A stretch of 50,276 bases of DNA, taken from assembly GCA_017621815.1 (NCBI GenBank), contig JAGASK010000021.1, positions 1 to 50,276 on the forward strand. Reading direction: 5' to 3'. Below are positions 2,950-29,292 of the stretch, piece by piece. Position 1 is the stretch's first letter, and each line of letters begins with the position of its first letter. Below the pieces are notes generated by a model. That model was given only the letters and a program-made list of their open reading frames with translations, did no database searches and was not told the origin of the DNA. The position numbers and the translations under genes were made by a program. This stretch comes from Lachnospiraceae bacterium (lineage in GTDB: Bacteria > Bacillota > Clostridia > Lachnospirales > Lachnospiraceae).

Positions 2950-2978
2950 ATTATAGCACACTTCAAAAGGTGTGTCTA
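2950..2978 (-). promoter_or_regulatory. Promoter of the 1324-2901 gene
   Basis: Reading the minus strand, TAGACA (2978-2973) and a perfect TATAAT (2955-2950) are 17 bases apart. The TAG stop codon of the DUF4956 gene (2978-2976) lies inside the -35 box. A CACAC/GTGTG inverted repeat fills the spacer. Confidence 0.75.
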
Positions 2979-3647
2979 CTTAACTTCTCCATCATGGGCA
3001 AGCAGGGAAACTTCTATTATTTCCGGCATTCCGGAAATCCTGTCCACAAGCTCCCTGTCTTTTTTAGTTTTCACTTCCAAAATCATATCCATACCGTTTT
3101 TTGAGATATTCTTTGATTTTATTTTATAAGAGCTGCCTGCTTCCTTAACAGCAGAAAGAATATCATCCTCAGCTGCTTTGGACGAAGCATTCACAATCAG
3201 CAGATACGGACTGATTCTCACAGGAAGCATGTCCAGCATTAAAATGCCGGCGGTTACTAAAACCGCAAGTATTACCGCTATTTTATAAAGCCCTGCCCCG
3301 CAGATAATCCCGGTACCGATAGACCAGAACAAAAACAGCAAATCCATTGGCTCTTTAATCGCCGTACGGAATCTTACAATGGAAAGAGCACCTACCATAC
3401 CAAGGGATATTACAATACTGGACTGCATGGCAAGGATAATTCCTGCAGTGACTACTGAAATAATTGCCATGGAAACATTGAAGCTTTTATAATAAAATGT
3501 GCTTTTCGTCACCATCCTGTATACCATAAAAATATAGGCCGCAATCACAAAAGTTATGATAAGCGTTGTCATGATTTTCGTTGTCGATAAATCCGAATAA
3601 GAAAAACCTTCCATTACTGATTTTTTAATTACGTCACTGAAGCTCAT
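2976..3647 (-). CDS. DUF4956 membrane protein (module 1)
   Basis: This 223-residue protein has about four hydrophobic segments in the first 140 residues and a soluble C-terminal part of about 80 residues. The central block SLGMVGALSIVRFRTAIKEP, followed by a membrane-like segment, matches the DUF4956 signature. The soluble tail (residues 145-223) has an alternating beta/alpha look like a small ferredoxin-like fold. The family has no proven biochemical activity that I know of, but is often found next to VTC-domain and CotH genes, as here. An AGAGG site lies 7 bases before the ATG. The gap to the VTC gene upstream is 42 bases. The core is nearly identical to the second copy at 8637-9311, so the two are paralogues. 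A channel or membrane partner for the VTC enzyme is inference. Confidence 0.85.
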   Translation of the reverse strand: MSFSDVIKKSVMEGFSYSDLSTTKIMTTLIITFVIAAYIFMVYRMVTKSTFYYKSFNVSMAIISVVTAGIILAMQSSIVISLGMVGALSIVRFRTAIKEPMDLLFLFWSIGTGIICGAGLYKIAVILAVLVTAGILMLDMLPVRISPYLLIVNASSKAAEDDILSAVKEAGSSYKIKSKNISKNGMDMILEVKTKKDRELVDRISGMPEIIEVSLLAHDGEVK

Positions 3648-3689
3648 TTTTTATCCTCTCATCCCTGCTGTTGTTTTTATGTTTTTCAT

Positions 3690-4370
3690 TTATTGATTCC
3701 TGTAATTTCTTGCATAATAATATTTTGAAAAGGAAGTCCTGTGAAGGATTCCGAGATTAAGCACTTCCGAAATATACTCAGGAAGCAGTTCATCATACTT
3801 CACCTCCAACACATGCTGCCCCTTTGGTAAGAGTGGGACTCCGGAAATCTCTTTGTCCAGAAAAGCTTCTGTCCTCTCACTGCCGCTTATATTTCTGTCA
3901 AAGGTAATTCTCACATTTCCCTTTCTTTCCACATAAGCCGTCCGTTCATATTCCACAATACAAACCGGATGCATGCCCTTCATCCTGCTTTCCGCATACA
4001 ATTCTTTTTCCAAATCAGAGTTTTCTGCATGTAACCGGGGCAGTTTCCCTGCCATATAAATAATACAGTCCTTTTTGGAAATTTCCATATCCAGCTTTTT
4101 GGTCATACCCCGGAGCTTTATCTTCTTTTCCAGTTTAATAACCTCATCATTTCCGTTATAAATTCTGATTCGGAATTTTCTTCTGTTATCTTCCCCGTTT
4201 GCATTTTCACGCAGGCAGGAATCATATAAATCATCAAAGTACAGGCTTCTTACAGTATATACGCCTTCCTTCTGATGAAAATCTGCCTGCATCAACGGCT
4301 TAATACGATACCTGATGATTTCCAGTTCTGCATCTGATACCGGAAATTTAAGTTCATGTCTGTATTCCAT
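3690..4370 (-). CDS. VTC-domain polyphosphate polymerase-like protein (module 1)
   Basis: The 226-residue soluble protein matches the VTC (CYTH-related tunnel) fold. Visible signatures are YRHELKF at the N-terminus, RSLYFDDLYDSC, the basic FRIRIYNG strand, KLEKK, VEYERTAYV, RITFDRNI, LEVKYDELLP and the terminal FSKYYYAR. These alternating charged strands line the catalytic tunnel in yeast Vtc4, which makes polyphosphate from ATP, and all appear present. There is no membrane segment, unlike fungal VTC proteins, so a separate membrane partner is needed if product is exported. It starts 6 bases after the CotH stop with GGGGTGA as ribosome site, so translation of the two is probably coupled. True product (polyphosphate or another phosphate polymer) is not proven. 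Confidence 0.85.
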   Translation of the reverse strand: MEYRHELKFPVSDAELEIIRYRIKPLMQADFHQKEGVYTVRSLYFDDLYDSCLRENANGEDNRRKFRIRIYNGNDEVIKLEKKIKLRGMTKKLDMEISKKDCIIYMAGKLPRLHAENSDLEKELYAESRMKGMHPVCIVEYERTAYVERKGNVRITFDRNISGSERTEAFLDKEISGVPLLPKGQHVLEVKYDELLPEYISEVLNLGILHRTSFSKYYYARNYRNQ

Positions 4371-4376
4371 TTCAAG

Positions 4377-5918
4377 TCACCCCATTTGTCCGATATAGCT
4401 GTCCAGAAAATCAATCCTTTTATTAATATAATCATAAAGATAGCTGTCCTGCCAATATTCCCCTTTCGGCGGCCATTTTTGCCGGTTTCTCACATAAGCG
4501 CCGGATGCCTGCAGATAAGCATGCTCTGCATCTGCCTTCTCATATAAAGCCTCCTTCGTAATAATGCTTTCCCGAAGCTCAAGCCAGCGTTCTTTAAGCA
4601 TTCCGCCGATTTCTTCCGGATTACGTAAATACAGTTCATAGATATCCGCCGTAAAGCCTCCCGTGCTGTCAATATTTTTTTCCTGATACCTGTTAAAATT
4701 ACAGTTATAATCATCTATCCAGGAATTGCCCCAGGTCATATTCAGATCCCAGGGTATTTTTATAAACCGGTAACTGCCGTTACCCTGATAATCCGCCCAA
4801 AAATAAACATTTTTCATGGTGTTATCCATACCGCAGATTAACAGATTGAAAAGATTGTAATCGATTGCATTTTCCATATTAAGGATTGCCTTACCCGCTT
4901 CATAATCATAAGACGCTTCTTCCAGAAACATGGATGCCCAGCTTTTAAGCGGCTCCCAGTCTTCCATGGTAAAAGTCTCAGGATATTTCAGTTCAAAAAC
5001 AGGCTCCATTTCTTCCGTCAATTCACTGTAAAAATCGTCTTCACCAGGATTTACCTGGTCCCGGCATTTATATAAAATATCCTTATTATTCAGTGAGAGC
5101 GCCTTTTTATCAACCCGCTCCATAAGTCCGTAAATCCCAAGATACTCATTATCCAGAAACAGCTCCGCATATTCCATGCTGATGCCTTCGTCATTTTCAA
5201 CCTGGTTGGATGCGGCAATTTCCTGCCACACTTCATATGAAAGCTTATTATGTATCAGCCCCTCATCATCATAAAGGGCATTCAGTATCCAGTCATCATC
5301 CTTCCTCATACCAAGGAGGGACAGCTTCTCATCCGTCAGGGTTAGCTTATAGCTCGATTTCTCATAGGTGAGACTTGTGGCTCCCCGCAAGTGAAAAGAG
5401 CATTCCCCGCTCTGATACCGGGCACTGCCGCGATACTGGTCATAAACCTCAATAAGACCATATCTTTCCTTATCTGTCTGTGATTCGGTAGTTATGTTAA
5501 TAACAGGCATTCCCGTAAAACAGACATTGTACATCCAGCACTGATTGTCCTTCACCCAAAACAAACGAAACACCTGGTTCTGACTGATTGCTTCCTCTTT
5601 ATCTTTAAAAGCCTCATCCTCCAGAAAATACAGCCTGCCGTCTTTGGCCTGAAGCTTACCGTCAAAGCTTTCTTCCGCAAGCGACTGAGGAATCAGCAGC
5701 ATATTCTGTTCACTGTCATAGGGAATTTTCCCGCCGTTCAAAGTGATTTCCTGCTCCGGAAAAGCATCCTCTTTTCCTTTACACAATTCCTCTATTTTTT
5801 CCATGGGAAGGACTTCCACACCCATAATATCTTTGAAAAGCCGCTCCGCCAGGCTGTCAAAATTTAAATACAACACCAGAAAAATAACAGATGCTGCCAC
5901 AAACCATAATTTTTTCAT
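4377..5918 (-). CDS. CotH kinase-like secreted protein (module 1)
   Basis: This 513-residue protein has one N-terminal membrane segment (residues 3-20) and an extracellular CotH domain. FHLRGATS near residue 176 and KSSYKLTL about ten residues on correspond to the nucleotide-contacting strand and lysine region of CotH atypical kinases. YLGIYGLMERVDKKAL and the PWDLNMTWG segment near residue 388 match the later active-site blocks, although the second acidic position of the usual WDxD is Asn. Spore CotH phosphorylates coat proteins; non-spore homologues beside VTC genes have unknown targets. The gene is 69 bases from its upstream neighbour and 6 from VTC. It differs considerably from the second CotH (10024-11925), so the duplication is not recent. 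Confidence 0.82.
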   Translation of the reverse strand: MKKLWFVAASVIFLVLYLNFDSLAERLFKDIMGVEVLPMEKIEELCKGKEDAFPEQEITLNGGKIPYDSEQNMLLIPQSLAEESFDGKLQAKDGRLYFLEDEAFKDKEEAISQNQVFRLFWVKDNQCWMYNVCFTGMPVINITTESQTDKERYGLIEVYDQYRGSARYQSGECSFHLRGATSLTYEKSSYKLTLTDEKLSLLGMRKDDDWILNALYDDEGLIHNKLSYEVWQEIAASNQVENDEGISMEYAELFLDNEYLGIYGLMERVDKKALSLNNKDILYKCRDQVNPGEDDFYSELTEEMEPVFELKYPETFTMEDWEPLKSWASMFLEEASYDYEAGKAILNMENAIDYNLFNLLICGMDNTMKNVYFWADYQGNGSYRFIKIPWDLNMTWGNSWIDDYNCNFNRYQEKNIDSTGGFTADIYELYLRNPEEIGGMLKERWLELRESIITKEALYEKADAEHAYLQASGAYVRNRQKWPPKGEYWQDSYLYDYINKRIDFLDSYIGQMG

Positions 5919-5987
5919 GCCAACCTCATTATAAAATACCTGATTGCCACCAAGAACAACACTTATTATAACGTTGCCTTCCTCTGA

Positions 5988-8306
5988 TTATCCTGACATT
6001 TTTATAAAGAATTTCTTAATAAAGCAGAAAAAAAATATAACCATCAATGTCATCAGGGAAATAATTTCCGCTGTCCGCCAGTACCACGGTTCTTCAAAAT
6101 ATACATGGATGCTTCCTTTAAATCCTGCCGGAACCATAACACGCATCCTGCTGTTAATCCCCTGGGTAATAATCAAATTACCTTTCTGTGTCTGCGCCTT
6201 ATAACCTTTATAGGGAATCAGCGGCAACTCAATATAAGCTTCCTTTTTCGTTTTATCAGTTACATCAACCTTCAACTTCAGTTTTCCCTTTTCCCGAAGG
6301 GCTATTTTTATATCCTCAGCATCAGAAACCCTTATCTCAGGGTCTGTTTTATCTTCTGAAAATCCTTCCGGCAGGTATTGTCCGTTATATACTGCTCCCT
6401 GACTCAAATCCCGAAAATCAGTTTCATGTTCAAATGGTATCATCGAGTCATTGTACTCAAAAATATAATTCATACCCTGCCACAAAAATAAAATACAGAC
6501 AGTTCCGCCCGCTACCAATAATTTCTTATTATCCAAATATTTTCTGCCAAACCTCAAAAGCAGTACAAACAGCAGGGGAATCAACAATGCTGCCACCGCC
6601 TGAAAACGCCATGCAAATTCAAATTTCATAAGAATATTAAAGATTGCATTTGCATAAACCTCCAGCCATCTGTACGGAAATAAATTAGTGGAAATCCAAA
6701 GCGCCAATGTTATTAAAGACAGAATTTTTATTATTATTACCCTGTTCTTTTTTTCTTTCAGGAACAAAAGAGCTGCTGCTGCGCCTGCCAAAACCACTAA
6801 AGAAGCCGGTCCCACTGTCATTGGCATATCATGAAGCATTCCTGTTAAATCCGCCCTTACATCTCCCACTGCATTATAAACATTGGTAAAAAGCTGTGAC
6901 ACATATGCTGAATATTGATAAACAGGCCTGTATTCGCCCTGTATTTTCAACTGCATACTTATGTACTCATCTAAAAAGGGTAGAATAAAAAACAAGTTAA
7001 GCAAAACAGTAACTCCTGCTGCTTTCACCAAAGCTGCCAATACCTCTTTAGTAAAAGTCTTTCTGAAAGAAATCAGGACAAAAACAAAAATAAATCCCAT
7101 TGCCATCATAGTTCCCAACACATGAGTCTCCAATATCCCGGATATTCCTATTACTAAATAAATCCAATCATATTTCCTTTTTTCTTCCCCATAATATATT
7201 TTCCACAGCCCCAATACGATAAACGGCAAAAAAGCCATTGCTGAAAATGCTCCCAGCGCCGCCCTTGTATAAACAGCCACAAGCCTGTGAAGTGAAAATG
7301 AATAAAGGATACAGCCGGAAATCCCCATAATTCTTCCTTTCCCTATGGACTTAAAGCAGGCATATGACCCCATTACCGTCAATAAATTTATGAGCAGCAC
7401 ATACACCTTATATGCCGCTGTCATAGAAAATCCCGCCGCATACATCAGCGCAGGCAGATAAAGTAAAATATCCCCGTAAAAAATCCCCGTTGCATAGCCG
7501 TAACCGTTCACCCATTCAGGCTGCACTTTTACAGGAAGTACCCCTTCCTGAAGCCCCGCTGCAATAGAATAAATTCTATAATAATGAAACCTCATATCAT
7601 ATCCTTTAGGCAGATAATCCATTGTCATCGGCAGTTCCAGCAAAAAAACCAGCAAACACAGTCCGGCAGCTGTGAGCAATGTTTCCTTTTTTACAGAAAC
7701 CAGCTTTTTCCTGTAAAACATTCCCAGACAGACCGCATCTGTAAACAGAAAAGCCAAAAGCAGCTTAATTGTTCTGACAACTCCCGTCCTTCCTTCCAAT
7801 GGTGTAATAACAATGCGGCTGACCGATGCTGACATCTGACACTCTTCATCCATAACTGCTTTTACTTTTACACAGGTATTATCCTTTTTGACATAAATCC
7901 GCCAGCTGACATGGTCCGAACTGTCAGTAAGCATAACCGCTTCAGAGTAAATCCATGCAGGTTCCTGATCTGCTACAGCCTGTGCATGAATGCCTGAAGT
8001 GCTTCCCGCAGGTATTTCAGAATTATAAAATACATCAATCTGATAAATTCCCTGTTTAAGTTTTGTATCCGGTGAAACAATTCTTTTATTTATCTTTTCA
8101 TCTGTTCCGTCCAAGGCTCCATTTCCTTCATCAATCTTAAGCCCTTCTCCGTTTTCTCCTGCTGTAATCAAATCCTCTGAACTATATTCTGCCCCCGGCA
8201 TAATCCGATTTACATTCCCGATAAAAAATAAGAGCAAAACCGCAAGCTCCCCCAAAATAATAAAATAAAATATTTTTCTCACCAATATGCATCCTCTCTT
8301 AACCAT
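5988..8306 (-). CDS. Large membrane protein, PTPS-related/GT-C-like
   Basis: The protein of about 772 residues has a first membrane segment (VRKIFYFIILGELAVLLLFF), an extracytoplasmic beta-rich region of about 150 residues, many membrane segments, then a C-terminal extracytoplasmic domain and a last membrane helix. GYDMRFHYYR near residue 240, followed by a VLPVKVQPEW segment and GIFYGDILLYLP, fits the 6-pyruvoyl-tetrahydropterin-synthase-related membrane family, distant relatives of YfhO and GT-C glycosyltransferases. Several starts are possible: TTG 8360, ATG 8339 (AAAGG, 6 bases), ATG 8306 (AAGGA, 10 bases, chosen) and TTG 8285 (AGAGGA, 6-7 bases). It heads the unit that includes the first CotH-VTC-DUF4956 module, so it may transfer a sugar to the same polymer. 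That is inference. Confidence 0.7.
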   Translation of the reverse strand: MVKRGCILVRKIFYFIILGELAVLLLFFIGNVNRIMPGAEYSSEDLITAGENGEGLKIDEGNGALDGTDEKINKRIVSPDTKLKQGIYQIDVFYNSEIPAGSTSGIHAQAVADQEPAWIYSEAVMLTDSSDHVSWRIYVKKDNTCVKVKAVMDEECQMSASVSRIVITPLEGRTGVVRTIKLLLAFLFTDAVCLGMFYRKKLVSVKKETLLTAAGLCLLVFLLELPMTMDYLPKGYDMRFHYYRIYSIAAGLQEGVLPVKVQPEWVNGYGYATGIFYGDILLYLPALMYAAGFSMTAAYKVYVLLINLLTVMGSYACFKSIGKGRIMGISGCILYSFSLHRLVAVYTRAALGAFSAMAFLPFIVLGLWKIYYGEEKRKYDWIYLVIGISGILETHVLGTMMAMGFIFVFVLISFRKTFTKEVLAALVKAAGVTVLLNLFFILPFLDEYISMQLKIQGEYRPVYQYSAYVSQLFTNVYNAVGDVRADLTGMLHDMPMTVGPASLVVLAGAAAALLFLKEKKNRVIIIKILSLITLALWISTNLFPYRWLEVYANAIFNILMKFEFAWRFQAVAALLIPLLFVLLLRFGRKYLDNKKLLVAGGTVCILFLWQGMNYIFEYNDSMIPFEHETDFRDLSQGAVYNGQYLPEGFSEDKTDPEIRVSDAEDIKIALREKGKLKLKVDVTDKTKKEAYIELPLIPYKGYKAQTQKGNLIITQGINSRMRVMVPAGFKGSIHVYFEEPWYWRTAEIISLMTLMVIFFFCFIKKFFIKMSG

Positions 8307-8636
8307 ATTGCAGATTTCCTTCCCAATACAGTCGTTCATGTATAACCTTTCGCTGTCCAATGCATCTCATTATTTCATAATTAAACAGAAATTTCACCGT
8401 TTATGTTATTTATGTAAAAACCTCACAATATTTACAGCTGAAACAGCATTTTTTTGAAAGCTTTCTATTGTCATGAATTATAACGTTCCGGGCTTTCAGC
8501 AATCCTGACAAATTTATAAAACTTTTCTAAATAAAATTGAAAATAAGCATAAAAAAAATACATCTTCATCAATTCCTGATAACTCATCAGTCAATGAAGA
8601 TGTATTTTCATTTTTTACTTTTATAAAGCCTGCATT
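8307..8636. other. Non-coding spacer between the two module units
   Basis: About 330 bases without a convincing gene. It contains the terminator at 8549-8610 and an AT-rich stretch that should hold the promoter of the 5988-8306 unit. A TATAAT at 8482-8477 on the minus strand is the best -10, but I see no good -35 at 16-18 bases; TTGTCA lies 23 bases upstream. Confidence 0.5.
8549..8610. terminator. Bidirectional terminator with nested hairpin
   Basis: A 12-bp perfect outer stem (8558-8569 with 8594-8605) encloses a smaller CTGAT/ATCAG hairpin. An A-run at 8551-8558 (T-run for the minus strand) and T-rich sequence after 8603 flank it. It ends the nine-gene unit that finishes with the second DUF4956 gene. 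Confidence 0.85.
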
Positions 8637-9311
8637 CTAAAAAGTCACTTCCCCGTCATGGGAAACCAGAGATGCGCTTTCCACGAACTCCAGTTTTTCA
8701 ATTTCCTGCATCATTTCATACTCCTTTGATGCCCTGACTTCCAACACAAGATTGCATCTGCCGGCTGTCATATTTCTTGACTTCACTTTGTAATATTTGC
8801 AGAACTCCGAAACCTTACTGACCAAATCCGGCTCCCCCTGGGAGTTTTTAAGATTGGCAACAAGAATCATTGGCGCCCGTCCCACCGGCAGTCTGTCAAG
8901 AACAATCACCAGTACCGTCAGAACCACAGACAGCACCAGCGCCACCTCCGTCATATGGGCGCCGCAGCAGATTCCCACCGCAATGGACCAGAACAAAAAG
9001 CACAAATCCATAGGCTCCTTAATCGCCGTCCGGAAACGCACGATGGAAAGAGCGCCCACCATACCAAGGGAAATCACAATGCTGGACTGCACTGCCAGAA
9101 TAATCCCCGCCGTAATTACAGCAATAACCGCCAGGGAAATATTAAAATTCTTGGAATAAAAAGTCTTCTTTGTAACCAGTCTGTAAACCATAAAAATATA
9201 AAATGCAATAAGCGCCGTAAGCAAAAGCACTGCTGCTATATGCGGCACGCTGATGCTTTCACTGGTATAGGAAGCAAGAAAATCCTTTTTGAATATATCT
9301 GAAAAGCTCAT
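8637..9311 (-). CDS. DUF4956 membrane protein (module 2)
   Basis: The 224-residue paralogue of the 2976-3647 protein has the same topology and the same SLGMVGALSIVRFRTAIKEP core, with only small changes just after it (LCFLFWSIAVGICCGA against LLFLFWSIGTGIICGA). The soluble tail has diverged more, and this is where partner specificity could lie. A GGGGAGG ribosome site precedes the ATG, and the VTC stop is 16 bases upstream. It is the last gene before the strong terminator at 8549-8610. Function is unknown beyond the recurrent pairing with VTC. Confidence 0.85.
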   Translation of the reverse strand: MSFSDIFKKDFLASYTSESISVPHIAAVLLLTALIAFYIFMVYRLVTKKTFYSKNFNISLAVIAVITAGIILAVQSSIVISLGMVGALSIVRFRTAIKEPMDLCFLFWSIAVGICCGAHMTEVALVLSVVLTVLVIVLDRLPVGRAPMILVANLKNSQGEPDLVSKVSEFCKYYKVKSRNMTAGRCNLVLEVRASKEYEMMQEIEKLEFVESASLVSHDGEVTF

Positions 9312-9327
9312 AACAATCCTCCCCTGT

Positions 9328-10023
9328 TTAAAATGTAAATCTTCTGCATAGATAATACTTTGAAAAGGTACTGGCTGTCAAACCCTCAAGCTGCAGCAGA
9401 CTGTGTATTTCATCCGGCAGAAAGCTGTCAAACTTAACCTCCATCAAAGCCTGTCCTTTGGGCATCACGCCTCGCCCCTGTATTTTCTCATCTAAAAATG
9501 AAGAAACCTCACTGACAGACGTAATATTGCTGTCAAAAGTCACTCTCACATTGGCATCCTGAAGACGGTATACATAAGGGACCCTGTCATAGTCCACAAT
9601 AACCGCAGGGCGCATCAGTCTTACCGCCATCAGATATGCAAGCTTATGCAGTACCTGCTGCTCCGGCCGGATATCCGGCGGGATAATCCCTTCCATAAGC
9701 TGTCTGCACTGCGATAAAGTGATGGGGCAGGAACGTTTGCCGGTTTTTCCCCGGATTTTCTGTTTTAATTCCAGATTAATCCTTTCCGGATTGTGGTTGT
9801 AAATACGAATCCTGTACTTTTCTCTGTTATCCACGCCGTTTTCATTATCCATATAACAGCTGTTTTCATAATCATCAAAATACAGACTTCTGATATTATA
9901 AAAACCGGCATCACCTGCGTGAATATCCTTTGACATAATCCCGCTTATTCTGGCATCCTCAATCAATATCTGCCCGTGGGTTAAGGGATATTTATACTCA
10001 TGCCTGTAATTTATCTGCTCCAA
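9328..10023 (-). CDS. VTC-domain polyphosphate polymerase-like protein (module 2)
   Basis: A 231-residue soluble VTC-domain protein with NYRHEYKYP, RSLYFDDYENSC, KYRIRIYNHN, NLELKQKIRGK, VDYDRVPYV, VRVTFDSNI, LMEVKFDSFLP and FSKYYLCR in the expected order. All the tunnel-lining basic and acidic strands are recognisable. Translation starts at TTG directly after the TAA of the CotH gene, with AGGAG 8 bases before it, so the two are translationally coupled. Similarity to the first VTC protein is clear in these blocks but modest between them. Expected role: ATP-dependent synthesis of a phosphate polymer at the inner membrane face, by analogy with Vtc4. Confidence 0.85.
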   Translation of the reverse strand: MEQINYRHEYKYPLTHGQILIEDARISGIMSKDIHAGDAGFYNIRSLYFDDYENSCYMDNENGVDNREKYRIRIYNHNPERINLELKQKIRGKTGKRSCPITLSQCRQLMEGIIPPDIRPEQQVLHKLAYLMAVRLMRPAVIVDYDRVPYVYRLQDANVRVTFDSNITSVSEVSSFLDEKIQGRGVMPKGQALMEVKFDSFLPDEIHSLLQLEGLTASTFSKYYLCRRFTF

Positions 10024-11925
10024 TTACTCTTCTCCTGTCTGTTCCCGTGTGCCTTCAGGAACACTATCTTCCCATATTCCCTTAAGAACACAATCCTCCC
10101 ATATGATGCTTCCGTCTGCTATGGACTGTCCGCTGTCCTTTTCAAAGTAGCCTTTAAATTTATATTCTTCCGTTTCATACTGAGGAAGCCCTTCAATGGC
10201 AGTTCCTTTTTCCACCCAGTAGTAAATTGTCTGATTATAATCCTGATTTAAGAAAGGGGCATCATTTCTTACTTCCACAACACAGTATTCCCTTTTTTCT
10301 ATCCAGAGCCTGTTAAGAAATTCCAGCTTCCGGGAAAGAAATTCTTTTACGAAATTCACGTGGCAGTCAAGAGTATCAAATCTTCTGTAATCGCCTTCAT
10401 CAGCCACCTGCAAATCGTCGGGAAGCACGAACATCCATCCAAGCCGCTGCTGGTGCCAGCGCAAAGCATCAAGCCGGGCGCTTCTCCTTATTTCTTCTAC
10501 ATATCTGTCAATTCCCGTATTTAAAATATCTTCCAGATTTTCCCGAAATACCCTGCTGTACTTTTCTGCCACCGCTTCCTGGAATTCAGGATTCCGGTAC
10601 ATAGCGGAAAGCCACCTGTTCTGATTGGCATTTCCCTCCGGCCTTGTCTGCCCGATTGATGTGGTAAGGGCAGCGGGATTTGTATACATAGGCGTATTTA
10701 CATTTCCCATAGAACCGTCAAAATCCCAGACCGGCCCTGCATATAAAAAAGGGGCATCCTTACTTAAGGTATAACTGAACTGGCTGGCAATTCCGGTATC
10801 ATGGTCTCCCGATATTTCCTGTATCAGCCAGTCCTCCGCCCAGGAATCAAAATCTATCAGCTGCGAAAGGGATTTCCCGCTCAGCTTACTGATGCCGTCT
10901 TCCGCATACAAAGCGCTTTCAATATCATTCAGAAAAAACTGAACCTTTTCCCTCTCCTCATCAGATATCGTTTCAATAGATTCCACCTCAAATATCTGAC
11001 CTCTGTCCGAGGTTACATAAACTTCTCCTTCTTCCATGCGGAAGTCCAGTTCCATTTCCAGAAGCCAGCCATCCCCAAGAGAAATCTCAAGCCTGTTCTC
11101 CGCCACCTCCACAGCTTCCGTCAGCAGATACATTCCCTGATAAACCCCGTTCACGTAAACTTCTGTAAATTCTCCGTCAGGCTCATAACCGTCAATGCTT
11201 TCATTAGCCAAATCCATTACAATCTTATTTCTGATATAGGAGCCGTCCGTGGCATTTGCCAGCAGATTCCACTTTATGGCAGGAGCCATTCCACAAAGGC
11301 CTATCTGACGGTTAAAAGAAAAGGTAAGAGGCTTTTTATCAAGGGTGGCTGTAAGATTTCCTCTGACCTTAAGCTTTTCCAGTTTTTCCTGACAGACAAT
11401 GTTTCCTGCTTCATCCAGCATAATCATATCGCCTGTTTCAATATATTTCTTATTGCTGAATTCCTCCAGACTGAATAATTCTTCTTCCGCTTCCACCTCA
11501 AACATAATAGCAGGAAGATTTTCAGAGGTTAATATCTGAAGAGTTTTGTCCATATAGGAAGTGCCGAACAGCCCTTCCAGCTGTATCCGGTGAACCGCTT
11601 CTTCACTGACTTCCGCAAAAACATCTCCGTCCTTATAATCTGCATCATCGATTTTAAGCCGGGCCTTTCTGTCACTGTAATGAAGAGTAAATTCCTTTTC
11701 CCTGCCTTCAAAACAGGAGGGCAGAAAAAGATAGTACCGCTCCTGGCTCTCATCTTCCCAGCACTTAAGCTTTATCTTTTCCCCGTTCACACTGCATTCC
11801 AGGGAAAAACCGTTCATAATCTCTTTTTCATGGTCTGTCCTCATATAAGAGACAATAAGTGCAAGCGCCAATATCACACAGGCGCTTGCAGCCACAAAAA
11901 TACGCATTTTATTTCCGGCGCTCAT
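10024..11925 (-). CDS. CotH kinase-like secreted protein with C-terminal repeat domain (module 2)
   Basis: A 633-residue protein with an N-terminal membrane anchor (residues 7-25), a beta-rich region to about 165 and the CotH domain at about 170-530. KVRGNLT near 187, DKKPLTFSF, MYLLTEAVEV and PVWDFDGSMGN near 400 are the active-site blocks; here the WDxD pair is intact, unlike in module 1. Residues about 555-615 (VEKGTAIEGLPQYETEEYKF, then KGYF) look like a Listeria-Bacteroides/InlB-type beta-grasp repeat, a common Gram-positive surface module. The acidic C-terminus has no sortase signal. It starts 3 bases after the preceding stop. The intact acidic pair suggests this copy is the catalytically stronger one. 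Confidence 0.82.
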   Translation of the reverse strand: MSAGNKMRIFVAASACVILALALIVSYMRTDHEKEIMNGFSLECSVNGEKIKLKCWEDESQERYYLFLPSCFEGREKEFTLHYSDRKARLKIDDADYKDGDVFAEVSEEAVHRIQLEGLFGTSYMDKTLQILTSENLPAIMFEVEAEEELFSLEEFSNKKYIETGDMIMLDEAGNIVCQEKLEKLKVRGNLTATLDKKPLTFSFNRQIGLCGMAPAIKWNLLANATDGSYIRNKIVMDLANESIDGYEPDGEFTEVYVNGVYQGMYLLTEAVEVAENRLEISLGDGWLLEMELDFRMEEGEVYVTSDRGQIFEVESIETISDEEREKVQFFLNDIESALYAEDGISKLSGKSLSQLIDFDSWAEDWLIQEISGDHDTGIASQFSYTLSKDAPFLYAGPVWDFDGSMGNVNTPMYTNPAALTTSIGQTRPEGNANQNRWLSAMYRNPEFQEAVAEKYSRVFRENLEDILNTGIDRYVEEIRRSARLDALRWHQQRLGWMFVLPDDLQVADEGDYRRFDTLDCHVNFVKEFLSRKLEFLNRLWIEKREYCVVEVRNDAPFLNQDYNQTIYYWVEKGTAIEGLPQYETEEYKFKGYFEKDSGQSIADGSIIWEDCVLKGIWEDSVPEGTREQTGEE

Positions 11926-11928
11926 AAA

Positions 11929-13494
11929 CTAATCTTCCTTTACAGCCACGCTGTCAATTCCATAATATCTGCAAAGTCCCTTGTTCTCCCAGTCTTCAGG
12001 ATCGGATTTGATATCTGAAAAATACAGAAGTACCGGATGCTCTGTAAGGGGCTTCACCACCACATCCTTTTCTCCGCTGTGATAAAGCTCCATTCTTTCC
12101 CTTAATTCATTCCCATAAGTCTTTGCACTGCCGTTTACAATGTCGGTAAGGGCAGAAGATGCTGTAAAATAATGGTTTTCGGGAATCACAGTAATTACCG
12201 CTGCCGCTGCAAAAAATACAAGGCAGCCTGCAAGGCACCAGATTTCATTGGCAGAAAAGCTGTTTTCCTTTTCTTCCGTTTTTTTCTCACCCGCACCTTT
12301 TAAAAGCTTTCCGCTTTCTATTTTCTTCCTCGCCCAGCCTGTGACATAACCCACGCATAAAGTAAGCACCAGGATATACATAGTAAAGGTAAGAGCCTGC
12401 AGCCTTGCAGCTTCCATGCTGCCTACTGCAAACAACGGAGGAGTCATCATGGCTGAAACCACACAATAACCAAAAAGCACTGCCACAAGGGGATATTGAA
12501 ACTTAAATTCCGTCTTCTTTGCCATGTGATAAAATAAAGGCACAAGGGCTATGATAAGAAGCAGCACAGGCCAGCCCGACCATTCGCCCATGCAATAATC
12601 AAGACAATAATAAAAGGAAATCAACACCGCTTTTACGGGATTCATTCCGTTTGTTCCCTCCGCCCTTACCCAGTTTCCGGGTGCCGCCACATTTAAAATA
12701 AATCCGAGAAAATAAAATCCCATGGGTATGGCAAGCGCTTTATAATCCTTCCATTTTTTCTGATATGCCAGAAATCCAACAGCCACAAGCAGAATTACCG
12801 CAACATTCAGCGCCGTCATCTGGTTTCCTCCGCCTGTAAGAAATCCCAGGACGCAGGCTGCGGTTAAATCGAAAATCCTCTTTTTTCCTTTATCATATAC
12901 GGCAGAAATCAAAAGCCCATAGAAAAACAGGCTCATTCCATGCACAAACATATAATTTGCAGCGCCGCTGTACCAGTAAAAGGCTTCCACCCGTCCCACC
13001 ATGCACTGAACCGTCACAAACAGCATCAGCATAATGACACAGTGGCTTACATATTTATCCGCCTTAAAAACCTTAACAAAAACGGTACGCAGCAGGTAGA
13101 TGGTAGAAAGGCTCAGCATCAGCAGCATAATCCAGGGAGTCAGCACATAAACACGCTCCCCGAAGGTGCTGGGAGGCATTGCCATAAGAAAATTGGAGGT
13201 AAAATATCCCATCCAGTTCACCCAGTCATCCACAGCCCTTACAATTCCTGCCCATATTACGGAAAATACGGAATGACTGCTTACCCATGCCTGTCTGCAG
13301 TTGCTTCCGATGGAATAATCATCCGCACTGGGATAATTGTACCAGCCAATCCAGAGAAGGGGTATGAGACCAAGCACATAGATAACCGTCAAAAATACGG
13401 CAAGAGCTTTGGGCGTAATCAGTTTTTTTAGTCCTTCTCCCCATTTTTCCGTTACGGTAAATATATTCTGCTTATCTTTACTAATCTTTTTCAT
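11929..13494 (-). CDS. DUF6056 family multi-pass membrane protein
   Basis: The 521-residue protein has about ten membrane segments and an acidic SADDYSIG motif near residue 55 in the first extracytoplasmic loop, the hallmark of the DUF6056 group. An acidic pair at this position is also typical of GT-C glycosyltransferases that use lipid-phosphate sugars. A short C-terminal extracytoplasmic domain (about residues 435-521) follows the last helix. It lies 3 bases before CotH and 10 bases after the aminotransferase, within a tightly packed operon. A lipid-linked sugar transferase is likely but unproven. Confidence 0.7.
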   Translation of the reverse strand: MKKISKDKQNIFTVTEKWGEGLKKLITPKALAVFLTVIYVLGLIPLLWIGWYNYPSADDYSIGSNCRQAWVSSHSVFSVIWAGIVRAVDDWVNWMGYFTSNFLMAMPPSTFGERVYVLTPWIMLLMLSLSTIYLLRTVFVKVFKADKYVSHCVIMLMLFVTVQCMVGRVEAFYWYSGAANYMFVHGMSLFFYGLLISAVYDKGKKRIFDLTAACVLGFLTGGGNQMTALNVAVILLVAVGFLAYQKKWKDYKALAIPMGFYFLGFILNVAAPGNWVRAEGTNGMNPVKAVLISFYYCLDYCMGEWSGWPVLLLIIALVPLFYHMAKKTEFKFQYPLVAVLFGYCVVSAMMTPPLFAVGSMEAARLQALTFTMYILVLTLCVGYVTGWARKKIESGKLLKGAGEKKTEEKENSFSANEIWCLAGCLVFFAAAAVITVIPENHYFTASSALTDIVNGSAKTYGNELRERMELYHSGEKDVVVKPLTEHPVLLYFSDIKSDPEDWENKGLCRYYGIDSVAVKED

Positions 13495-24202: not shown

Positions 24203-25144
24203 TTAAAACTCAATCACCTTCAAATACCTCTCAAGTGCATCCTGCCAGGCAGGCAGGGGCCGAAATCCATTTGCCGCCAGTTTGCTTTTATCAAGCCTTG
24301 AATTAAATGGTCTCTTTGCCTTGGAAATTCCGTATTCTTCCGTAGTTACAGGCGTTACCTTTACCTTATCAGGCGCATATTCACAGTGTCCCTGCAAAAC
24401 TGCCTGTCTGAAAATTTCAACAGTGAAATCATACCAGCTGATATAACCGCCTTCATTGGTTACATGATAATATCCGTACTTGTCCGTTTCTATCATATCC
24501 ACCAGAAGTCTCGCCAAATCATAGGTATAAGTAGGCGTGCCAATCTGATCATTAACCACCCTTATTTCATTATGATTCTTCCCCACATTCAGCATGGTTT
24601 TAATAAAGTTCTTTCCGTTCACGCCGAACACCCAGGCAATGCGGACAATAAAATATTTTTCCAGATTATTGGCTACCGCCAGTTCTCCTTCCAGCTTCGT
24701 CTGCCCGTACACATTCTGGGGCTTATAATCTTTGCAGTCCGGATCCCAGGGCTGTGTACCCTGTCCGTCAAAAACATAGTCCGTGGAAATATAAACCATC
24801 TTGCAGTCCAGCTTCTTGCAGACCAGGGCAATATTTTCCGTACCCTTGGCATTTACAAGACGAACCTTCTCCACCTTATCGTCATCCTCTGCCAAATCCA
24901 CAGCTGTCCATGCAGCGCAGTGAATCACCACATCAGGCTTCTGCTCCATAATAATATGTTCTACAGATGCTTTATCTGTTATATCCATTGCCGCATAGGG
25001 CATTTTTGTTACAGCAGAATCATCCGCAATGCCGCTGTAAACAGGAGCAATATCTGATCCTGTCCCTTCATAACCTCTCTTTGCCAGTTCATTCATGACA
25101 TCATGACCAAGCTGCCCAGCTACACCTGTTACTAAAACTTTCAT
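24203..25144 (-). CDS. rfbD: RmlD-type 4-keto-sugar nucleotide reductase
   Basis: A 313-residue short-chain reductase with VTGVAGQLGHDV (NADPH site), HCAAWTAVD, YISTDYVFDG and YGQTKLEGE (catalytic Tyr-x3-Lys). These match dTDP-4-dehydrorhamnose reductase. No rmlA, rmlB or rmlC is in the window, and the gene follows the CDP-sugar genes, so it may instead reduce the 4-keto group of the CDP-dideoxy sugar, or it may serve a rhamnose pathway encoded elsewhere. GGAGG precedes the ATG. There are 85 bases to the previous stop, the widest gap in this operon, so separate expression is possible. Confidence 0.82.
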   Translation of the reverse strand: MKVLVTGVAGQLGHDVMNELAKRGYEGTGSDIAPVYSGIADDSAVTKMPYAAMDITDKASVEHIIMEQKPDVVIHCAAWTAVDLAEDDDKVEKVRLVNAKGTENIALVCKKLDCKMVYISTDYVFDGQGTQPWDPDCKDYKPQNVYGQTKLEGELAVANNLEKYFIVRIAWVFGVNGKNFIKTMLNVGKNHNEIRVVNDQIGTPTYTYDLARLLVDMIETDKYGYYHVTNEGGYISWYDFTVEIFRQAVLQGHCEYAPDKVKVTPVTTEEYGISKAKRPFNSRLDKSKLAANGFRPLPAWQDALERYLKVIEF

Positions 25145-25229
25145 CCGAATTCATCCTCCATATTTATTCTGTCTATAATTTAAGACCGCTTTTATTCTTT
25201 CTCCATAAGCTCCGCAATTTAAGCCCGTT

Positions 25230-26297
25230 TCATTTCTTCTTCATAAAATCCACAATTTGCCTGTCCATACATTCTGTCATATCAGCATGATTCTTCCAGG
25301 CAGTAAACCACTCCACTGTCTTATCAAGCGCAATATCAATAGTCCACACCGGCTTCCACTCAAAACGGCTCTTCAGCCTGGAACAATCCAGTTTTAAAAA
25401 GTTTGCCTCATGAGGACCTCCGTCATACTGATTTTTCCATGAGATTTCCGAATCAGTACTCTTATTCCACTTTTCACAGAACCTCGTTACAAGCTCCCCT
25501 GTAGTCAGACAGTCTGCTTCATCCGGTCCCACATTATAGCTGCCTGAAAAAGCGGCATCTTCATACTGTTTCCCGGCAATCATCAGATATACCATTACCG
25601 GTTCCAGCACATGCTGATAAGGACGGGTGGAATAAGGATTTCTCACAACAATATCTTCTCCTTTTACGGCTGCCCTTACACAATCAGGCACAATCCTATC
25701 CTTTGCAAAATCTCCGCCTCCTATTACATTTCCCGCTCTCGCTGTGGAAATGCCAGGACCGCCTGAACTGAAAAAAGAATTTTTATAACAACCTGTTACC
25801 AATTCAGAACAGGACTTGGAATTGGAATAAGGGTCAAAACCGTTTAGCTCTTCCTCTTCTCTGTAACCCCATTCCCATTCCCTGTTGAAATAAACCTTGT
25901 CAGTGGTAACATTTAAAAAAGACTTCACGCTGTCCGTCTTTCTGATGCATTCCAGAACATTTACCGTTCCCATGACATTGGTTTCATAAGTATATACGGG
26001 GTCAGCATAGGATTCCCTTACAATGGGCTGGGCTGCCAGATGAAAGACAATTTCCGGCTTTTTCTCCTGAAACACCGCCTGCAGCCGGGATAAATCCCTG
26101 ATATCACCGTTAACAGAATTCATCTCTTTTTCAAGACCGCAGATTTCAAACAGATTTGGACTTGTGGGCGGATTTAACGCATAACCTGTTACTTCTGCGC
26201 CTGCCGTAATGAGAGTCCGGCACAGCCAGCTGCCTTTAAAGCCTGTATGCCCTGTTACCAATACTTTTTTCCCTTTATAAAAATTTAAATCTGTCAT
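25230..26297 (-). CDS. rfbG: CDP-glucose 4,6-dehydratase
   Basis: The protein of about 355 residues begins NFYKGKKVLVTGHTGFKGSW, the characteristic N-terminus of RfbG with its NAD-binding GHTGFKG. HLAAQPIVRESY, NVTTDKVYF and the YSNSKS catalytic Tyr-x3-Lys follow. It converts CDP-glucose to CDP-4-keto-6-deoxyglucose. The start at 26297 was chosen because it gives the family's usual N-terminus; ATG 26312 is too close to GGGAG, and TTG 26321 also exists. It sits directly after rfbH in the CDP-sugar operon. Confidence 0.92.
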   Translation of the reverse strand: MTDLNFYKGKKVLVTGHTGFKGSWLCRTLITAGAEVTGYALNPPTSPNLFEICGLEKEMNSVNGDIRDLSRLQAVFQEKKPEIVFHLAAQPIVRESYADPVYTYETNVMGTVNVLECIRKTDSVKSFLNVTTDKVYFNREWEWGYREEEELNGFDPYSNSKSCSELVTGCYKNSFFSSGGPGISTARAGNVIGGGDFAKDRIVPDCVRAAVKGEDIVVRNPYSTRPYQHVLEPVMVYLMIAGKQYEDAAFSGSYNVGPDEADCLTTGELVTRFCEKWNKSTDSEISWKNQYDGGPHEANFLKLDCSRLKSRFEWKPVWTIDIALDKTVEWFTAWKNHADMTECMDRQIVDFMKKK

Positions 26298-26353
26298 TTT
26301 ATTTCCATCCATTTCTCCCAACCGGCTTCCAGTTCTGCAATTTCTTCCGCTGC

Positions 26354-27703
26354 CTATTGTCTGACAGCAGCCTTAATGGTCTGCGCCATATATTCCAGCA
26401 TTTCCTCCGTCATACCAGGGTATACCCCAATCCAGAAGGTATCTTTCATAATCCTGTCGGTATTTTCAAGGCTCCCTGCCACACGGTAGCCTTTACCGCT
26501 CTTCCTCATCTCATCAAAGCAGGGATGCTTAATTAAATTCCCGGCAAACAGCATTCTGGTCTGAACTCCATGGCTCTCAATATAAGGCACCACCTTATTT
26601 CTGTCCACACCTTCTGCACAGGTAAGCATAAAGCCAAACCAGCTGGGATTGGAATTTTCACATGCCTCCGGCAAAATAAATGTATCCTGCACATCCGAAA
26701 GTGCCTCCTTCAAATAGGCAAAATTCTGTCTTCTTCTTTCCACAAAGGAAGGAAATTTTTTAAGCTGTGCACAGCCTATGGAAGCCTGTAAATCCGTTGC
26801 TTTCAAATTATATCCGAAATGGGAATAAACATATTTATGGTCATATCCTGTGGGAAGCTCACCGTATTGCCCGTCAAACCGGTGTCCGCACAGATTATCA
26901 CGGCCGGATGGACAAACACAGTCCCTGCCCCAGTCACGAAAAGAACGGATGCACTTATGCAAAAGCGGATTGTCCGTATATACAGCTCCCCCTTCCCCCA
27001 TAGTCATATGATGAGGAGGATAAAAGCTGGAGGTTCCGATATCCCCCACGGTTCCTGTAAGATAAGTTTTTCCGTCCAGAATATATTCACTGCCAAGGGC
27101 ATCACAATTATCCTCTATCAGCCAGAGATTATGTCTGTCACAGAACTCCTTTACAGCTTTTAAATCAAAGGGATTGCCGAGGGTATGGGCAAGCATGACA
27201 GCCTTTGTCTTTTCACTGTAAGCTTCCTCAAGCTTTGTTACATCGATATTATACTGCGGAACGGTTACATCCACAAAAACAGGAACCGCCCCATATTGAA
27301 TCATAGGCGACACAGTGGTGGGAAAGCCTGCTGCCACCGTAATCACTTCATCCCCTCTCCTTATCTGCCGCTCTTTAAGAAGAGGGGAAGTCAGCGCCAT
27401 AAATGCAAGCAGATTCGCCGAAGAGCCTGAATTAACCAGGCTGCAGAAACGGACCTTTAAGTACTCCGCAAACTCTTTTTCAAACTGCTCCGTATATCTT
27501 CCTGATGTGAGCCAGAATTCCAGCGCGCTGTCCACAAGATTTGTCATTTCCTCACTGTCATATACCCGGGAAGCATAAGGAATTCTGTCCCCTTTTTCAT
27601 ATTCTTTTTTATCTGCATGATATTTTTGATAATACTCTTTGACAAGATTTAAAATCTGTTCCTTATCTTTTTGCTGGTTTTCACTGTACATAATCATAAC
27701 CAT
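26354..27703 (-). CDS. rfbH: CDP-4-keto-6-deoxyglucose 3-dehydrase (E1)
   Basis: A 449-residue PMP-dependent, Fe-S-containing member of the DegT fold. The Schiff-base lysine is replaced by His231 in FYPPHHMTMGEGG, the hallmark of E1 dehydrases. Cluster ligands are Cys200 (EDNCDALG), Cys262, Cys264 and Cys272 (CVCPSGRDNLC), giving CX61CX1CX7C; the Yersinia enzyme, as I recall it, has X57, so a 4-residue insertion is present. E1 removes the 3-hydroxyl and needs a reductase (E3), which is not in the window. Three ATGs lie close together (27703, 27697, 27691); the AAGG site fits the second best. Confidence 0.92.
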   Translation of the reverse strand: MVMIMYSENQQKDKEQILNLVKEYYQKYHADKKEYEKGDRIPYASRVYDSEEMTNLVDSALEFWLTSGRYTEQFEKEFAEYLKVRFCSLVNSGSSANLLAFMALTSPLLKERQIRRGDEVITVAAGFPTTVSPMIQYGAVPVFVDVTVPQYNIDVTKLEEAYSEKTKAVMLAHTLGNPFDLKAVKEFCDRHNLWLIEDNCDALGSEYILDGKTYLTGTVGDIGTSSFYPPHHMTMGEGGAVYTDNPLLHKCIRSFRDWGRDCVCPSGRDNLCGHRFDGQYGELPTGYDHKYVYSHFGYNLKATDLQASIGCAQLKKFPSFVERRRQNFAYLKEALSDVQDTFILPEACENSNPSWFGFMLTCAEGVDRNKVVPYIESHGVQTRMLFAGNLIKHPCFDEMRKSGKGYRVAGSLENTDRIMKDTFWIGVYPGMTEEMLEYMAQTIKAAVRQ

Positions 27704-27724
27704 GCCTTTCTTATATCTTTTTAC

Positions 27725-28498
27725 TTACCAATTCTTCCAGGGAGCTTCTCCCCCTCCCCAAAGCATATTCAGATAATCCCTGTCATGAATGTTATCCATA
27801 GGCGACCAGAAGCCGTCATGGCGGTAAGCCATCATCTCTTCTGCTGCCGCCAGTTTTTCAAAAGGTTCTCTTTCCAGCATGGTACTGCCGTTTCCCAGAT
27901 AGTCAAATACCCTTTTATTCAAAACCATATATCCTGCATTCACCCAGGACTGATCCTTTCTTGCTTTCTCTTTAAAGCTTTCCACCTGCCCGCTCTCGTC
28001 AATCTTAATAGCGCCGAAGCGTCCTGCCGGCCTTGTGGTGGTAATTGTGGCAATTCTGCCGTGGGAATGATGAAATTCAAGAAGCTTTTCAATATCAATA
28101 TCCGCCACACCGTCGCCATAGGTCAGCATAAACTCCTCATCTTCCCCTATATATTCCCTGATTCTCAGAATTCTGCCCGCTGTCAGAGTAGAAAATCCGG
28201 TATCAGCCAGAGTAATTTTCCACGGCTCCGTATCGTGATTATGCTCAATGTGCCCTCCGCCTGTAAGGTCAAAGGTGGTATTTGTCTGATACATATGATA
28301 ATGGGTAAAATATTCCTTAATAATATGCCCCTTATATCCGCAGCAGATAATAAAATCATGATACCCAAAGGCAGAATATATTTTCATGATATGCCACAAA
28401 ATCGGTCTGCCGCCTATTTCCACCATGGGTTTGGGTTTTACCGCAGTCTCCTCGCTGAGACGGCTTCCAAGACCGCCTGCCAAAATAACTACCTTCAT
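27725..28498 (-). CDS. rfbF: Glucose-1-phosphate cytidylyltransferase
   Basis: The 257-residue enzyme starts MKVVILAGGLGSRLSEET, the nucleotide-binding loop of RfbF. KPKPMVEIGGRPILWHIMK, the metal-binding LTYGDGVAD and GFWSPMDNIHD are also canonical. It makes CDP-glucose from glucose-1-phosphate and CTP, the first step of the CDP-dideoxyhexose pathway. AAGGA lies 8 bases before this ATG, and the previous gene stops 4 bases upstream, so longer upstream starts were rejected. It is the intact partner of the degenerate paralogue at 28503-29276. Confidence 0.93.
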   Translation of the reverse strand: MKVVILAGGLGSRLSEETAVKPKPMVEIGGRPILWHIMKIYSAFGYHDFIICCGYKGHIIKEYFTHYHMYQTNTTFDLTGGGHIEHNHDTEPWKITLADTGFSTLTAGRILRIREYIGEDEEFMLTYGDGVADIDIEKLLEFHHSHGRIATITTTRPAGRFGAIKIDESGQVESFKEKARKDQSWVNAGYMVLNKRVFDYLGNGSTMLEREPFEKLAAAEEMMAYRHDGFWSPMDNIHDRDYLNMLWGGGEAPWKNW

Positions 28499-28502
28499 AA
28501 CA

Positions 28503-29276
28503 TTATCCTTCCTGCCATGACTTCCATGGAGCGGCTCCTGCATTCCATAAATTCTGCATTTGCTCAAAATCCCTTTTGGTTTCAATAGGACTCCAGAAAC
28601 CTTCATGCTGATAAGTATCTATCTGATTTCTCTCCGCCAGGCGCTCAAGAAGCTGATTTTCCAGACTGTAATTTCCCGTCATGAACTTAAAAGCCCTTTT
28701 TTCCAAAACATAGGTACCTGTATTTGTCCATGCTTCCTTGCTCATGGTTTCTTTTTTTCCAAGGTAATTTCCCTCTCCGTCCAAAGCCAGCAGACTGTGT
28801 CTTCCGCTGGGTCTTGCTACCACCATAGTTGCCAGCTTCTGCCGCTGTTCATGGAAACGTACCACCTCATTGATATCAATATCATCCAGGCAGTCACCGT
28901 AAGTAACAATACAGGAATCACCGTCTATATACTTTTCCGCCTGACTGACCCTTAAACCCGTTGCCGAATAAAGCCCGGTGTCCACCACTGTAACCTTCCA
29001 GTCCTCCGAAATATTCTTGTGTATCTTAATGGTATTGGTAAGCAAATCCACGGTAATATCGGACTGATAGATATAGAAATCCTTAAAATAATCCTTTATC
29101 ATATCTATCTTATATCCGGCGCAGACGATAAACTCATGAAACCCCTGTGATGCATATTTTTTCATTATATGCCATAAAATAGGGTTTTCACCTATTTCTA
29201 CCATGGGCTTCGGCATTTTTTCCCTTTCATCCGTAAGTGTGCTGGGCATTCCTCCTGCCAAAATCACTACCTTCAT
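28503..29276 (-). CDS. Divergent cytidylyltransferase-like protein
   Basis: At 257 residues it has exactly the length of the neighbouring RfbF and aligns end to end with it: KPMVEIGENPILWHIMK, GYKIDMIKDYF, VTYGDCLDDID, GFWSPIETKRD and the PWKSW tail. The nucleotide-binding loop is changed from GLGSRLSEET to GMPSTLTDERE, losing the conserved Arg position, and TYGDG has become TYGDC. It may accept another sugar phosphate or nucleotide, act as a regulatory subunit, or be inactive. GAGGG lies 8 bases before ATG 29276, better than TTG 29300, which overlaps the previous stop. It is 4 bases from rfbF. Confidence 0.8.
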   Translation of the reverse strand: MKVVILAGGMPSTLTDEREKMPKPMVEIGENPILWHIMKKYASQGFHEFIVCAGYKIDMIKDYFKDFYIYQSDITVDLLTNTIKIHKNISEDWKVTVVDTGLYSATGLRVSQAEKYIDGDSCIVTYGDCLDDIDINEVVRFHEQRQKLATMVVARPSGRHSLLALDGEGNYLGKKETMSKEAWTNTGTYVLEKRAFKFMTGNYSLENQLLERLAERNQIDTYQHEGFWSPIETKRDFEQMQNLWNAGAAPWKSWQEG

Positions 29277-29292
29277 TGCCTGATCCCTCTTT

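Follow-up and report, generated by a model that had tools for sequence, protein, structure and literature searches.

Genes for a CotH kinase-like protein, a polyphosphate polymerase and a DUF4956 protein accompany pel genes in a published list of accessory genes that also includes DUF4832 (PMC7112168), and the same trio stands beside Pel loci in a second report (PMC12345266); across the two it is contiguous in streptococci, clostridia and bifidobacteria. The yeast VTC complex (Vtc4/Vtc3/Vtc1) makes polyphosphate on its cytoplasmic side, adjacent to a membrane part whose basic residues line a channel next to the polymerase and are required for vacuolar polyphosphate (PMC9911596). CotH of Bacillus is a spore-coat kinase that in B. 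subtilis requires D228 and D251, and the source of its ATP is called an unanswered question (PMC7821199). Here we analyze a stretch of 50,276 nucleotides (nt) from a Lachnospiraceae bacterium (GenBank assembly GCA_017621815.1, contig JAGASK010000021.1), hereafter the window, which carries two copies of a CotH–VTC–DUF4956 module. The VTC and DUF4956 genes prove to be a unit across genomes, and we tentatively suggest that each module may make and export polyphosphate for an outer protein.

Modules, genomes and precedents

The window is contig C7 of a draft genome (G000; 3.5 Mb, 91.55% complete). A Pfam scan confirmed what the earlier note had read from the letters, namely the same three genes in the same order at two places, with all six proteins above their cut-offs. 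Both copies lie on the minus strand and are transcribed in the order CotH, VTC, DUF4956. In copy A, the CotH gene (4377–5918; PF08757, 129.3 bits, cut-off 23.8) is followed after 6 nt by VTC (3690–4370; PF09359, 137.6 bits, cut-off 23) and after a further 42 nt by DUF4956 (2976–3647; PF16316, 35.5 bits, cut-off 30.6). Copy B is built in the same way from CotH (10024–11925; 115.0 bits), VTC (9328–10023; 129.4 bits, with a TTG start in the list of open reading frames, ORFs) and DUF4956 (8637–9311; 46.8 bits), with gaps of 0 and 16 nt. None of the six proteins matched NCBIfam at 1e-3. Profile searches of the genome located a third module on contig C45 (locus L007), ordered VTC–DUF4956–CotH and followed by a metallo-beta-lactamase-fold gene. 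All three DUF4956 and all three VTC matches of the genome fall inside these modules; of its four CotH genes, the fourth is on contig C44, which has no VTC or DUF4956 match. Because PPK1 and PPK2 are both present, a missing PPK was rejected as the reason for the VTC genes.

Adjacency of DUF4956 and VTC in other genomes, which the earlier note had proposed to check, is common. Among 299 genomes drawn across the phylum, DUF4956 occurs in 46 and VTC in 46, and the 46 are identical. A VTC gene lies on the same strand within 1 kb of 53 of the 55 DUF4956 genes, with VTC first in 47 cases and DUF4956 first in 6. The two unpaired DUF4956 genes belong to G062, where both genes are near contig ends, and to G136, where CotH stands between DUF4956 and VTC; three VTC genes lack a DUF4956 gene at that distance, one each in G062 and G136 and, in G270, a second VTC of shorter length. 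No natural VTC–DUF4956 fusion was seen in the 299 genomes, the longest open frames being 312 residues for VTC and 271 for DUF4956. In 79 further loci, retrieved with one DUF4956 protein as query and mostly from Lachnospiraceae, taken together with the window and L007, VTC lies just upstream of 85/91 DUF4956 ORFs, and a Nonomuraea record has the order VTC–DUF4956–CotH. Both families were also matched in the same three of 14 control genomes, Corynebacterium glutamicum, Methanosarcina acetivorans and B. ihuae. The DUF4956–VTC gene pair is a unit.

This pair is also common outside the Pel cluster in the phylum sample, contrary to PMC12345266, which states that its analyses turned up no such synteny away from the Pel locus. 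PelG was present in 11/299 genomes and in only 2 of the 46 with the pair: in G105 CotH is 0.5 kb and VTC 3.5 kb away from it, and in G136 it is on a different contig. PelG gave no match in the three control genomes with the pair, nor in G000 at its stated completeness, and the modules there show no contiguity with pelDEADAFG. The Pel accessory genes are the same three gene kinds, likewise contiguous, but stand beside Pel, whereas the genome of the window lacks a PelG match.

A published gene list contains a further precedent. The C. perfringens NELoc-2 locus has VTC twice, each time followed by a "tubulin/FtsZ" protein of 222–226 residues predicted to be in the membrane, along with CotH and a glycosyltransferase (PMC2879425); from their size, order and membrane prediction, these "tubulin" proteins are probably DUF4956. 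Two plasmid records have the trio in glycan settings other than Pel. On a Planococcus plasmid it is followed by a 689-residue protein, a HEAT protein and a glycosyltransferase, an order that resembles the NELoc-2 listing. The Pseudobutyrivibrio plasmid pNP95 carries the trio with DUF6056 and GT2 genes nearby, and both kinds also occur near copy B. In the open-licence PMC literature, outside of which most subscription papers lie, we found no account of VTC–DUF4956 as a unit or exporter beyond the Pel papers and the gene list of PMC2879425, and the available text of PMC8250860 and PMC6848847 holds nothing on mechanism. The earlier statement that no such system had been described thus stands for the mechanism within that literature, but not for the gene trio, which PMC7112168 and PMC12345266 had already reported.

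Copies A and B share 52% identity over 223 aligned residues in DUF4956, 45% over 224 in VTC and 26% over 421 in CotH, a gradient of divergence as the earlier note had described. The near-identical DUF4956 core, however, is a property of the family: 28 columns are invariant in 46 sequences, so the likeness of the two cores is no evidence of recent duplication. Recent tandem duplication was rejected, as a VTC tree of 88 rows (midpoint-rooted, with several long branches unsure) puts the two copies in separate supported clades. Copy A clusters with L008, L015 and L030 (support 100/99), outside an 81-row branch (96/86) that contains copy B, Oscillospiraceae, Treponema and others; L008, L015 and L030 carry a B-type VTC too. 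In the genus, A-type VTC (at least 57% identity) is found in 17/37 genomes, and in 9 of the 17, G000 included, another VTC match lies no more than 15 kb away in the same orientation, the one in G326 being only partial; this co-location count covers 54/106 VTC match rows. Three VTC matches share one locus in G302 and in G307, and relatives in the genus have up to six per genome. Judged from the tree, A and B belong to two separate, old lineages whose members share one locus in several relatives, which fits separate tasks for the two copies.

Enzyme, membrane protein and outer companions

The VTC family profile, built from 45 of 88 sequences (alignment A2), matches Vtc4, and the closest fold is the yeast Vtc4 polymerase, ahead of the hydrolases that, like cyclases, also have this fold. 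Of 14 active-site positions, 11 are kept in 110/110 rows, K83 and K216 in 109 and D193 in 91; the list of positions was drawn from conservation together with what we take to be the corresponding Vtc4 residues. The Pfam VTC domain spans residues 4–219 of 226 in copy A and 7–226 of 231 in copy B, with no other domain. Pfam found neither an SPX domain nor a VTC membrane domain on the enzyme, and the adjoining membrane gene is DUF4956. Profile and model thus support a soluble triphosphate-tunnel, polyphosphate-polymerase-like enzyme. The earlier note's assignment of VTC to phosphate-polymer synthesis holds on fold and active site; polyphosphate as the product we only infer. The yeast complex shares the polymerase-domain fold and the active-site residues, whereas the bacterial enzyme lacks SPX and membrane helices, its membrane partner is an MgtC-like DUF4956 protein, a kinase-like or beta-helix protein is added, and the destination would be the cell surface.

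In an AlphaFold 2 model of the copy A DUF4956 protein (predicted local distance difference test, pLDDT, 78.7), a helix at the N terminus precedes five long helices, and the C-terminal domain is ACT-like. Its RxR motif is invariant in 112/112 rows and K98 is kept in 100/112; the two invariant arginines lie near one end of the third long helix, a predicted membrane helix. By a positive-inside reading with the ACT-like domain inside, these conserved basic residues would be at the cytoplasmic face. The copy A protein reaches 14.1 bits against Pfam MgtC, under the cut-off of 31.4, and weak MgtC matches (E up to 10, best 3.7e-4) were obtained for all 46 members of set A1, which comprises 46/91 DUF4956 ORFs. 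A DUF4956 profile aligned with a profile of 21 MgtC proteins (hhalign, 96.5%, E 7.1e-10, 136 columns) across the C-terminal domain and a portion of the membrane core. The MgtC set, A4, holds 21/30 loci from relatives, with L127 and eight others, mainly near copies, left out; a further set, A5, was made without L076, which contains unknown bases. Nine of 10 sub-cut-off MgtC hits in genomes of the genus have a VTC match at most 1 kb away and are therefore DUF4956-type genes. DUF4956 is a distant relative within the MgtC superfamily, outside the Pfam MgtC family proper; compared with MgtC/SapB, it has the invariant RxR, which is not seen at the aligned place in the MgtC consensus.

CotH was found in 41/299 genomes, 37 of which have the pair (Fisher P 3e-34), and Cthe_2159 (PF14262), in a test free of picking, in 33/299, of which 27 have it. 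Cthe_2159 proteins are described as having a beta-helix fold and binding cellulose and acidic sugars (PMC6712302). Among the 46 pair genomes, 19 have CotH only, 9 Cthe_2159 only, 18 both and none neither, and one or the other occurs in just 10 of the 253 genomes without the pair. At pairs lacking CotH within 2.5 kb, neighbors were inspected for 20/22 (G101:C80 and G062 were left out), and 10/10 look-alike neighbors that were scanned matched Cthe_2159, these ten having been chosen after inspection of neighbor sequences rather than as a random sample. In the retrieved loci together with the window and L007, CotH lies within 1.8 kb of at least 67/91 DUF4956 ORFs, a lower bound, as some CotH-like genes in cluster c48 (L012, L013, L064; identified by reading the sequences) escaped the profile made from three CotH sequences. 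Control genomes, scored for presence only, gave all three families in C. glutamicum and M. acetivorans and Cthe_2159 with the pair in B. ihuae; among the remaining 11, CotH was matched only in B. subtilis. Pairwise distances across 60 of 85 modules, those with CotH, correlate more closely between VTC and DUF4956 (r 0.74) than between CotH and either (0.61, 0.57), with common descent inflating all three values; this is as expected if VTC and DUF4956 were the machine and CotH its adaptable outer part.

Both CotH proteins of the window have an N-terminal hydrophobic segment by hydropathy, as do 75/79 CotH proteins of at least 400 residues. A profile of 25 of the 83 CotH sequences (A3) matches the B. 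cereus CotH structure 5jd9 with E 4.4e-26. Our own alignment, with the spacing of 23 in 5jd9, places the equivalents of D228 and D251 at D365/D391 in copy A and at D376/D401 in copy B. Each protein deviates at one position other than these two. The motif is WDLN in copy A and WDFD (from residue 400) in copy B, and N occupies its last position in 12/85 CotH rows with a letter there; copy B has Ser (S381) five residues past the D228 equivalent, a site held by Asn in B. cereus CotH and by Ser in 66/85 rows. The loss of an acidic residue from WDxD that the earlier note had seen in one CotH is thus real in copy A, but both essential Asp equivalents are kept in both copies. Decay of one CotH copy was rejected on these grounds. 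Across the family, the D228 equivalent is missing in 13/85 rows (9 G, 3 A, 1 E). The profile match and both essential Asp equivalents are shared with the Bacillus spore-coat kinase; the window proteins differ from it in their N-terminal hydrophobic segment, an extra N-terminal region and their setting in a surface-glycan locus.

CotH genes flank the VTC–DUF4956 pair on both sides in L045, L046, L047 and L081, and at the D228 position the alignment shows no Asp for the upstream CotH of L045. Upstream of VTC in L053, L056, L072, L073 and L082 is a small protein of 216–247 residues that resembles the CotH N-terminal region and, as a profile, hits seven CotH proteins with E between 1e-5 and 1e-3; the kinase domain is absent, and the protein may be a docking part. 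One neighbor in L104 combines leucine-rich repeats with a lamin-tail domain, and similar sequences are present in L099 and L105.

Readings of the module

The reading we favor, with slightly less than even confidence, is that each module is a polyphosphate synthesis-and-export unit feeding an outer CotH or Cthe_2159 protein. Soluble VTC would polymerize phosphate from ATP in the cytoplasm; DUF4956 would receive the chain and pass it outward, by analogy with the yeast polymerase domain coupled to its basic membrane channel; and membrane-anchored CotH, or in other species the Cthe_2159 beta-helix protein, would use, attach or bind the polymer outside. The outcome would be a modified cell surface or surface polysaccharide. 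What we infer here is the polyphosphate product, DUF4956 as its path, the action of CotH or Cthe_2159 on the polymer outside, and the target. With SPX and the VTC membrane domain absent, the module would resemble the yeast VTC complex in how it works but would not belong to it. A bolder extension, which we regard as a long shot, is that exported polyphosphate serves as the phosphate donor for CotH outside, where ATP is scarce, so that phosphate or the whole chain ends up on surface proteins or polysaccharide.

Several observations weigh against export. The strongest comes from S. intermedius, where no loss of aggregation is reported upon deletion of the VTC gene SIR_1593 (PMC12345266). Every trio mutant in that study still aggregates and makes Pel; in artificial sputum, aggregation falls by more than half in the DUF4956-type and CotH mutants, and the Pel level rises in the former and falls in the latter (PMC12345266). 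These data do not fit a strict three-step pathway. In the DUF4956 model, pLDDT is only about 60–68 around the conserved RFR helix, and the five long helices compare with four membrane segments predicted for the homologue in PMC12345266. With the whole model as query in VIA-align and Foldseek, the membrane part had no PDB match among the matches listed, which covered the C-terminal domain, for Foldseek to the extent that the match descriptions show; that domain resembles many unrelated ferredoxin-like folds besides that of MgtC, the M. tuberculosis MgtC domain 2lqj ranking 33rd in Foldseek amid many of them. The invariant E6 of VTC maps, by our own mapping, onto a hydrolase Glu that is absent from Vtc4 (PMC4641920), so another chemistry is possible. 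Companionship also has gaps: CotH occurs without the pair in four genomes and Cthe_2159 in six, 8/55 DUF4956 genes have neither companion within the limits used (G062 is at a contig end, and in G101 CotH is 2.8 kb off), and DUF4956 on a Hymenobacter plasmid has no VTC match within about 6 kb.

The S. intermedius phenotypes, with DUF4956 and CotH deletions moving the Pel level in opposite ways and no reported aggregation loss for VTC, would suit a regulatory module in which VTC and DUF4956 act inside the cell, DUF4956 sensing a metabolite or phosphate state and controlling CotH or polysaccharide output while VTC makes or removes the signal. The relationship of DUF4956 to MgtC and its ACT-like domain point the same way. 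We find this doubtful, as the polymerase-like active site is kept in all 110 VTC rows and Pfam showed no regulatory output domain in the six window proteins.

E6 also bears on the idea that the VTC tunnel enzyme makes a different product, namely a short phosphate chain or a phosphorylated precursor passed to a glycan or lipid, with CotH completing surface phosphorylation. The breadth of the fold, common to hydrolases and cyclases, would allow it, and the loci hold glycosyltransferases and sugar-nucleotide enzymes, with MBOAT-like and SGNH-like genes (named by reading the sequences) in relatives. It is unlikely, however, given that the closest fold is the polymerase and not the hydrolases, and that two of the four hydrolase acidic-patch positions are basic and invariant in our mapping (R4 and K191), with E6 acidic and the fourth position unsure. 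Parallel action, with anionic polyphosphate and a CotH phosphoprotein both reinforcing the matrix and the genes traveling as a surface cassette, could draw on the nine genomes with Cthe_2159 and no CotH, on the binding of acidic sugars by Cthe_2159 (PMC6712302) and on the looser tracking of CotH, but is quite unlikely when all 46 pair genomes have CotH or Cthe_2159, a tighter association than a loose cassette suggests.

The nearly strict co-occurrence of DUF4956, a domain of unknown function, with a Vtc4-like enzyme yields a concrete proposal for its role. If the export reading is true, bacteria and archaea would have their own version of the eukaryotic machinery in which polyphosphate synthesis is tied to movement across a membrane, and a polyphosphate donor would offer a general means of driving phosphorylation outside the membrane. 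The module links three questions: the phosphate donor of CotH outside the cell, the role of the Pel accessory genes, and the presence of three VTC genes despite PPK1 and PPK2.

Other genes in the window and related loci

Between the two modules, on the minus strand, lies a gene (5988–8360) whose product appears by sequence to be a membrane protein; it falls in cluster c49 with genes in L017 and L061, and no Pfam family was found for 5988–8306. Directly upstream of copy B is a DUF6056 protein (11929–13494, minus strand; PF19528, 84.1 bits).

A set of cytidine diphosphate (CDP)-sugar genes (24203–31314) encodes a CDP-glucose 4,6-dehydratase (TIGR02622), RfbH (NF011936), an RmlD-type reductase, an acetolactate-synthase-like enzyme and two glucose-1-phosphate cytidylyltransferases. 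The latter, a neighboring pair at 27725–29300, score 368 and 274 bits against a cut-off of 300; the second gene (28503–29300) has diverged and falls under it. The set is likely to make a 3,6-dideoxy or, presumably, a branched-chain CDP-sugar.

A fusion of a PAP2-type domain with a glycerophosphodiesterase domain is encoded at 35099–37726, its C-terminal part without a Pfam match. Three genes (40495–43647, 46678–48978 and 49066–50100) encode proteins of 1050, 766 and 344 residues in one sequence cluster, c67; both members that were scanned have S-layer homology domains, and the c67 proteins are possible surface substrates.

Among the retrieved loci, seven (L087, L089, L090, L093, L095, L100 and L102) have a gene for about 220–255 residues and one for 390–525 residues with two hydrophobic segments beside the VTC–DUF4956 pair. 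These neighboring genes look like two-component systems, one L102 sequence being histidine-kinase-like. In L139, genes for TolC and a type-9-sorted protein come after the Hymenobacter DUF4956 gene, and the 359-residue protein encoded just upstream of the latter (4739–5818), which is without a Pfam match, may be a different DUF4956 partner.

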